Positions 13,966 through 39,670 of a stretch of DNA of 55,017 nucleotides are shown here, one piece after another. Position 1 is the stretch's first letter; each line of letters starts with the position of its first letter. Under the pieces are notes generated by a model. It made no database searches. It had not been told where the DNA came from and worked only from the letters and a program-made list of their open reading frames with translations. The stretch is from Methylococcaceae bacterium. GTDB lineage: Bacteria > Pseudomonadota > Gammaproteobacteria > Methylococcales > Methylococcaceae. The stretch is taken from contig SCQD01000074.1 in NCBI GenBank assembly GCA_004299145.1, positions 1 through 55,017 on the forward strand, in the 5' to 3' direction. A program made the position numbers and the translations under genes.

Positions 13966-14042
13966 GGGTAAGCTGTGCGTACCCTACGTCAATCGGCGCA
14001 GTCGGGAAGCGCCATCGTTCCCACGCGGAGCGTGGGAACGAT
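13966..14042. repeat. Palindromic repeats between the HD-GYP and cyclase genes
   Basis: One degenerate GGGTACGC-type palindrome (13966-13984) and one perfect one of the type ATCGTTCCCACGC/GCGTGGGAACGAT (14014-14042). Both belong to families seen elsewhere in the window. The second ends 43 bases before the cyclase start and could act as a terminator or attenuator. Confidence 0.8.
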
Positions 14043-26243: not shown

Positions 26244-26747
26244 ATGACCGACATTTATCTCGTTACCCTCATTGCCGCGCCCAGCCTGGAAGAAAACCTG
26301 GTGGACTGGCTGCTCAGCCATGAAAGCCGCCGCGAAGCGGAATCACTAAGGCTTAATGAAAGCCGCCGCGAAGCGGAATCACTAAGGCTTAATGAAAGCC
26401 GCCGCGAAGCGGAATCACTAAGGCTTAATGAAAGCCGCCGCGAAGCGGAGTCACTAAGGCTTAATAAAAGCCGCCGCGAAGCGGATTGCGACAGCTGCGC
26501 AGCAAAGCCGGCCAGTTCCGACAAATGCTGCCATGGCTTTACCAGCTTTGCCGTGTCGGGACATTCCAGCCGCCATCAGGGCTTGAGCCTGGAAGAGCAA
26601 GTGGCTGGCCGCAAAAAACAGGTGGGGTTTGAAATGCACATTCGCGGGCCGGATTTGGCCGCTTTGCTGGCGGGGCTTAAACAAGACTTTGCCGGTACCG
26701 GGCTGCACTATTGGGTGACGCCGGTGTTGGACAGTGGCACTTTGTAA
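26244..26747 (+). CDS. DUF3240 family protein carrying an in-frame 36-bp repeat array
   Basis: The first 27 residues (MTDIYLVTLIAAPSLEENLV and on) and the last 80 (FTSFAVSGHS, LSLEEQVAGRKKQV, GTGLHYWVTPVLDSG) match the small DUF3240 family of about 100 residues, which often accompanies CusA-type pumps. Between them are four copies of ESRREAESLRLN and a partial fifth, 12 residues each, encoded by a 36-bp repeat that elsewhere in this window lies between genes. The frame is kept, so a 167-residue protein could still be made, with a charged repetitive loop where relatives have a short linker. If the fold tolerates it the protein works. Otherwise the gene is a recent casualty. It lies about 6 kb from cusA. 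Confidence 0.8.
   Translation: MTDIYLVTLIAAPSLEENLVDWLLSHESRREAESLRLNESRREAESLRLNESRREAESLRLNESRREAESLRLNKSRREADCDSCAAKPASSDKCCHGFTSFAVSGHSSRHQGLSLEEQVAGRKKQVGFEMHIRGPDLAALLAGLKQDFAGTGLHYWVTPVLDSGTL
26322..26485 (+). repeat. Array of 4.5 copies of a 36-bp repeat inside the DUF3240 gene
   Basis: Units begin at 26322, 26358, 26394 and 26430, with a truncated fifth at 26466. Each contains the hairpin-forming GCCGCCGCGAAGCGG. The copies are almost identical (one A/G change in the fourth, a changed first codon in the fifth). The reverse complement of the same unit occurs once at 2100-2135 and four times at 39521-39664. There are no spacers, so this is not CRISPR. Confidence 0.95.
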
Positions 26748-26840: not shown

Positions 26841-27227
26841 TTATTTGGCGTGCTGTTCGCTGACTTTCTTTTCGATGGCCGTCAGCTTTTCGACTGCTTC
26901 GCTCAGAGCTGCGGCAGATTTTGCCATATCGCCTTTTTCAGCTTCATTGGTGGCGGTTCTGATGCGAGCCTGTGCGTGCTGCAAAGAAGCGCCGAGGTAG
27001 TCGCCGGTGACTTCTTTCATGTGCTGCTTAGTGAGCTTGAGCTCGTCCAGGGTCATGTCTTTGTGGCCGGCCTGGGCGTGGGTCAGCGCGCTTTTGACGC
27101 TGGCCAGGGCTTCCTTGGTGTGCTTCAGCACGCCTGCCGCGTCTTCAGCGGCCATGGCGGCAACGCCGCTCAACCCTATAACACCAGCGATCAGTACGGC
27201 AGCAATTGTTTTTACATAAGACTTCAT
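26841..27227 (-). CDS. Small exported helical protein, possibly SmbP-like metal-binding
   Basis: 128 residues from the second of two close ATGs. An AGGAG site nine bases before 27227 but nearly touching the ATG at 27236 decides this start. A signal peptide (TIAAVLIAGVIGLSGVAAMA) is followed by a fully helical, Ala/Lys/Glu/His-rich mature part with spaced His residues (LKHTKEAL, LTHAQAGHKD, LQHAQARI). This pattern resembles the small metal-binding protein SmbP of Nitrosomonas, a periplasmic four-helix bundle, but the similarity is by composition and spacing only. A strong terminator follows, so it is a single-gene transcript. Confidence 0.6.
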   Translation of the reverse strand: MKSYVKTIAAVLIAGVIGLSGVAAMAAEDAAGVLKHTKEALASVKSALTHAQAGHKDMTLDELKLTKQHMKEVTGDYLGASLQHAQARIRTATNEAEKGDMAKSAAALSEAVEKLTAIEKKVSEQHAK

Positions 27228-27613
27228 TTTTTTCATTCTCCTAAGGTATTTAAGATTGTCATGTTAGCGTCGTCGAGCCTTTCGATATGGGGGCTTTCAG
27301 CTTGCTTCGAATTGCGCATGCTCGGATGAATATGCCCGGATGGCGTGTCGTCCGTGTCGGTGATCGGCCCGAAAAAACGCAGCGCAAGGCCCCATCGGAT
27401 CGTTAAGCGCGCCTAATGTTAATAAAAAACGTCGATCCATGCTATGCGCTTCCATCAAATCGCTGAAAAACAGCGCTGGACGCGCGACTGGCAACACGCC
27501 TGCGTTGTCTTGAGGGGTGGGCTAAAACCCTTAAATCTCCAGGGATAAAATTTTCATCATGCAACAATTTCAAAACGGGATAATACCGGCTTCTTCCGTT
27601 TCACGGCTTATCC
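27228..27613. other. Intergenic stretch between the small exported protein gene and rlmM
   Basis: About 385 bases with divergent genes on both sides, so it should hold two promoters. I could not fix a convincing -35/-10 pair for either. A 66-codon frame on the minus strand has no family resemblance and is not called. None of the palindromic repeat families occurs here. Confidence 0.5.
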
Positions 27614-39428: not shown

Positions 39429-39520
39429 GGTTTCCCCTTTTTTAGTGTTGCGCGCAAAGTTCCAGGCGGAGTATCAAAGTCTATCCACGCCTTAACTAAG
39501 CGGGGATTTTAACACACATT

Positions 39521-39664
39521 CAAGAAGCCTTAGTTATTCCGCTTCGCGGCGGCTTTCAAGAAGCCTTAGTTATTCCGCTTCGCGGCGGCTTTCAAGAAGC
39601 CTTAGTGATTCCGCTTCGCGGCGGCTTTCAAGCAGCCTTAGTGATTCCGCTTCGCGGCGGCTTT
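39521..39664. repeat. Four tandem copies of a 36-bp palindromic repeat between miaA and hfq
   Basis: Units start at 39521, 39557, 39593 and 39629, each containing CCGCTTCGCGGCGG, and are nearly identical. The array begins six bases past the miaA stop on the minus strand. It is the reverse complement of the unit inside the DUF3240 gene and of the single copy at 2100. Confidence 0.95.
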
Positions 39665-39670
39665 CCTGCA

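Follow-up and report, generated by a model that had tools for sequence, protein, structure and literature searches.

Part of a small conserved gene of a Methylococcaceae bacterium, encoding a DUF3240 protein, consists of nearly identical 36-bp units in tandem. This raises the question of whether the repeat is an old part of the protein or a piece of DNA that entered it from elsewhere, and, if it entered, how it came there and what it has done to the protein. We analysed the stretch of 55,017 nucleotides that carries the gene (hereafter the window) together with the rest of its genome and with the genomes of its relatives.

A tandem repeat within the DUF3240 gene

The gene (26244-26747, + strand) encodes a 167-aa product that passes the Pfam gathering threshold for PF11582 (DUF3240) with a score of 66.5 bits vs a cut-off of 21 (E 2.4e-18), the match covering only residues 94-166, the C-terminal 73 residues. 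TRF finds a tandem repeat at 26320-26485 with a 36-bp period, 4.6 copies and 98% matches, through which the reading frame stays open; the repeat reported in the earlier note is thus real, as is its claim that each unit adds 12 residues and keeps the frame, for the translation reads ...LLSH(ESRREAESLRLN)x4 KSRREAD.... The left target flank CCATGA lies at 26318-26323 (+), and the first element begins after its GA. Four full elements (AAGCCGCCGCGAAGCGGAATCACTAAGGCTTAATGA, the last ending in AATAA) occupy 26324-26467 (+; 26322-26465 in the unit search), as located by sequence, TRF and unit search, each encoding one ESRREAESLRLN peptide, and are followed by a truncated fifth element (AAGCCGCCGCGAAGCGGA) at 26468-26485 (+). 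The insert ends with about 45 bp of non-element sequence (26486-26530, +), a Cys-rich segment encoding DCDSCAAKPASSDKCCH, for which comparison with relatives and with the rest of this genome gave no counterpart. No Rfam family matched at the array.

In a genome of the same genus (G001) the orthologue is uninterrupted and has 100 aa, leaving an excess here of 67 aa (201 bp) in total; the relatives' uninterrupted sequence at the split site is LVDWLLSHEGRYGFTS. The four and a half units, absent from the relatives, split the domain as had been claimed, although the split point lies after helix 1, with the second strand following it, and not directly after the first strand. In an AlphaFold2 model, helix 1 runs through the repeats to residue 81, with a block pLDDT of 79-96 over residues 1-70, and the Cys-rich segment is left unresolved; the model is weak, since it was built from an alignment of two sequences, and its prediction is one long charged helix, helix 1 being lengthened by the repeats. 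The next gene (26841-27236, - strand) encodes a product that, at a score under the Pfam cut-off, looks like a small metal-binding protein.

A dispersed element restricted to one genus

Within the window, the 36-bp unit occurs nine times at three mismatches or fewer (4 + 1 + 4), compared with no occurrence in 100 shuffles. The reverse-complemented copies that had been placed near 2100 (one) and 39521 (four) were both recovered on the - strand: the former is a solo element at 2099-2134 (2101-2136 in the unit search), adjoining a GTTCCCACGC...GCGTGGGAA palindrome, and the latter a head-to-tail array of four elements at 39520-39663 (39522-39665 in the unit search), outside the DUF3240 gene and found by TRF and unit search, in which the unit at 39633 is a GGCTG variant. 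Genome-wide, about 169 units match with three mismatches or fewer in a 30-bp core, 81 of them forward and 88 reverse (control 0), many of them intergenic and many in other genes. The DUF3240 repeat is one instance of an event that affected the whole genome, and the earlier view of it as a dispersed repeat that invaded the gene is borne out by these copies and by the relatives without the insert.

A set of 186 units at 126 places, drawn from sequence stretches around listed repeat places, comprises 92 solo elements and 34 head-to-tail arrays with all units on the same strand (control 0). Neighbouring units are spaced by 36 bp in 46 cases, by 39 bp in 12 (for the most part in a subfamily whose inner loop is longer) and by 37 bp in two; the assembly is a draft of one strain in 353 contigs, and the tandem copy numbers depend on it and may be misstated. 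Units differ at 2.1 positions within arrays vs 4.3 between arrays, which argues for local growth of arrays. The 39-bp subfamily, seen at L063, L070, L074 and L082, carries the inner loop CGTCCTCGCGG, its length is also a multiple of three, and at L063 it encodes ALVIPRGRGGFQE in a DUF3426 protein.

The element is confined to this genus. Searches gave 161 matches in this genome and four in G001, and 299 other genomes of the order and 368 of the class had none. The distribution was the same in an earlier alignment-based search, which covered 60 relatives and gave 11 hits, mostly diverged, in G001, and an exact 29-mer had no match in the contig collection searched, which possibly does not include the source genome.

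Element anatomy, target sites and a possible route of movement

The element consensus reads [A/C]AGCC GCCGCGNAGCGG WATNACTAA GGCT[T/G], then C[T/C][T/G]GA, with a core that is near-invariant apart from a few loop positions. The outer stem AAGCC/GGCTT covaries to CAGCC/GGCTG, an A-T pair being replaced by a C-G pair (p 5e-8), and this covariation points to a hairpin. The predicted single-strand folding energy is no better than that of shuffled sequence (z 0.13), so that the hairpin rests on covariation together with symmetry. On the left, the target ends in GA (often GGGA) at 83 of 110 places and in CA at 19, and on the right the element has an NNGA end of its own. The tetranucleotides on the two sides agree in six cases vs 4.8 after shuffling, that is, no more than shuffled, and there is therefore no target-site duplication. 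Many solo elements interrupt other REP-like palindromes, for example CTCTCCCTCCGGGA|GAGGGCCGGGGTGAGGG and GTTCCCACGCTCCGCGTGGGA|ATGCAGCC, of which empty versions also occur. Uninterrupted GTTCCCACGC...GCGTGGGAACG palindromes lie at 14016, 35503 and 35667 of the window; in other parts of the genome this palindrome serves as a target for the element.

We interpret the repeat as a miniature, non-autonomous mobile palindromic element of exactly 36 bp that has expanded in one Methylococcaceae species, a reading to which we assign a probability of about 0.85. The element is dispersed in both orientations, follows a target ending in GA, adds exactly 36 bp without duplicating the target, and occurs between genes, inside other REP-like palindromes and, in frame, inside about 30 coding sequences. 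We envision that copies of a short hairpin enter sites with a terminal GA, the target not being duplicated, and, more tentatively, that a single-strand HUH transposase (Y1, of the IS200/IS605 or RAYT-like kind) acts on it in trans. Tandem arrays might extend through new insertions at the NNGA with which the element itself ends on the right, through unequal exchange or through slippage.

Movement as a DDE-type MITE, or spread by gene conversion or template switching, would do without a Y1 enzyme, and we place it only a little below even odds. None of the three Y1_Tnp genes in the draft genome is flanked by the 36-bp element, and errors of replication at hairpins could account for the insertions inside other palindromes, both of which speak for such a route. 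Single-strand transposition by the Y1 enzymes of IS200/IS605 is expected to leave no target duplication, whereas typical MITEs have target-site duplications and terminal inverted repeats of 15-30 bp. The element differs from a MITE on both counts, its terminal repeat being only 5 bp, and the lack of duplication and the fixed GA at its right end are as expected of IS200/IS605-like movement. Elsewhere in the genome, a RAYT-like gene (L117:1180-2006) has inverted copies of a different REP (GATGCGCTGACGTAAGGAAGCGCATCG) on both sides, and an IS200-like TnpA gene (L115:1200-2206) lies among AACCCCGGAGGGGTT...CCGGGGGTTGAGCG repeats.

In-frame insertions in coding sequence

Insertions were called as coding when both flanks were coding on the same strand and in the same frame, according to our own iterated hexamer classifier; an initial model, with the longest ORFs as its training set, failed to separate the strands and gave way to the iterated one. 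Besides DUF3240, 28 in-phase coding insertions are open and three contain a stop. Over all places, a mean of 0.50 of the six frames across the element is open, and against that background chance would seldom give 28 open insertions of 31 (binomial p 2e-6, with related copies counted as independent and coding status taken from our classifier). The open readings within genes are SRREAESLRL at 12 places, the ALVIPLRGG type at six, the SLSDSASRR type at five, the AAAKRNNSG type at three and PPRSGITKA at two. The consensus has a TAA stop in the AAAKRN reading, and in all three in-gene members a base change removes it.

Pfam places inserts inside or adjoining the domains of RlmN, FolP, MltG, a MurD-like protein, an outer-membrane efflux protein (OEP), a TonB receptor, GH3, an LMW phosphatase and a PAS kinase, among other domains. 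The insert of the MurD-like gene is a 36-bp element lying inside a REP, and the REP too is in frame. Composites of another REP (CCCTCTCCC...GGGAGAGGG) with a nested 36-bp element stand in frame inside genes, a MurD-like ligase being one example, at L102:911-2386, L172:411-2498 and L096:4979-6838, and one DUF2398 gene (L072:1270-2715) has two separate in-frame insertions, of one and three units. Given a net gain of 36 bp and an element open in about half of its frames, many in-gene insertions would be tolerated, and the remaining ones were presumably removed by selection.

Empty sites in homologues

A concatenation of 17 protein segments was searched against G001, G008 and G014, and the homologues fetched were aligned locally. 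Seventeen proteins, DUF3240 and 16 others, could be aligned to an uninterrupted homologue. In 11 of them the length difference is exactly 12, 24 or 36 residues, that is, one, two or three units: 12 in RlmN, an ABC-transporter protein, OEP, a GDSL protein, the PAS histidine kinase, the TonB receptor (reference G014) and the L146 protein, which from its look we take to be peptidyl-prolyl-isomerase-like, with no family assigned; 24 in the LMW phosphatase; and 36 in the HlyD-like, MltG and FolP proteins. The NagZ-like, patatin (reference G014), MurD-like, SPOR-domain and deacetylase proteins show the gap together with small further differences. The DUF3426 protein (L063) gave no alignment to the fetched homologue and was left out of the count, as were the inserts in PanB, HemE, DXS, Ppx/GppA and TrmB, which are at the ends of the proteins, with the start codon or C-terminus uncertain there. 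The homologues in the related genomes hold the empty sites, and open-frame insertions of the element are far over-represented.

A rival reading is that the insertion has inactivated DUF3240, with the many other in-gene copies marking decaying pseudogenes. An insert of 67 aa is large for a 100-aa protein, and three of the in-phase coding insertions do contain stops; we nevertheless regard this outcome as improbable, in view of the 28 to 3 dominance of open frames and the loss of the TAA from all three in-gene insertions in the AAAKRN reading. Furthermore, this genome holds no second, uninterrupted copy of FolP, RlmN, MltG, the MurD-like protein or DUF3240, which, for conserved enzymes, argues against simple inactivation. 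As the frame is kept and the five genes checked have no intact second copy, we infer that most invaded proteins still work. Beyond the mobile element itself, it is conceivable, though we consider it doubtful, that the element is shaped for life in genes: its 36 bp (39 bp in the subfamily) and its roughly half-open frames would make it a self-spreading hairpin that supplies the conserved proteins of a free-living bacterium with multiples of a ready-made peptide of 12 or 13 residues, the predicted long DUF3240 helix among them.

An assembly artefact or contamination is very improbable. The 353-contig draft, and an array about as long as a short read, would invite such a suspicion, whereas 92 solo copies have an exact net length of 36 bp and intact frames, assembly completeness is 100% with contamination at 0.93, and related copies are present in a single-contig genome of the same genus. 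It is likewise very improbable that the DUF3240 protein has had the charged repeat from its ancestors as a functional part: the repeat keeps the frame and its predicted structure is a clean helix, but the same DNA is intergenic and also lies in unrelated genes, in other frames too, and every homologue read from the same genus, the family and the order is uninterrupted, which refutes this reading for the relatives examined. The charged repeat, whose sharing among relatives would have marked it as ancestral, was found in no relative.

Comparison with known systems

Mobile palindromes that enter functional proteins have been known chiefly from Rickettsia, whose genomes are reduced. The present case shows this process in a methanotroph that is free-living, where copies are numerous and near-identical, empty sites are exact at 36 bp, and several housekeeping genes are invaded. 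How well proteins tolerate insertion, and whether new protein segments come from mobile DNA, are therefore open to direct measurement. It also cautions that short repeats labelled extragenic may lie in coding sequence.

The parallel drawn earlier with Rickettsia palindromic elements is apt in kind. Those elements, about 150 bp long, are likewise palindromes standing in frame in many unrelated genes (review PMC10969869), as the present one does at 28 places and in DUF3240. Ours differs, by length and description rather than by sequence, in its 36 bp, its tandem head-to-tail arrays and its free-living gammaproteobacterial host. Closer are the GTAG- and CGTC-tagged REP superfamilies, palindromes of 20-40 bp in high copy that are mostly intergenic, with some inside unrelated conserved genes of free-living bacteria (PMC3733652). 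The 36-bp element, with its approximately 169 units, shares with them the short palindrome, the high copy number and the presence in conserved genes. In contrast to them it carries no tag, its consensus ends being GA|AAGCC and GGCTTCNTGA; it stands solo or head-to-tail, not as inverted dimers, and its hairpin is asymmetric. GTAG REPs associate with RAYT genes; in this draft genome no RAYT gene flanking the element was found.

REPINs, which go with RAYTs, are also short non-autonomous repeats, with inverted doublets as the replicative unit and known tandem clusters that include flanks (PMC3116915); inverted doublets are not the main form here, where the 126 places hold solos and same-strand arrays. 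PARCEL, too, is palindromic DNA that encodes tandem peptide repeats, but its motif has 25 residues, lies in ORFs of unknown function and is spread between distant taxa (PMC2996958), as opposed to 12 residues, conserved genes and one genus. We found no earlier report of the 36-bp element in the open literature, most subscription papers lying outside the search. Taken together, REPs inside genes and the palindromic elements of Rickettsia were already known, and what is new is an untagged, genus-restricted 36-bp element in a free-living bacterium.
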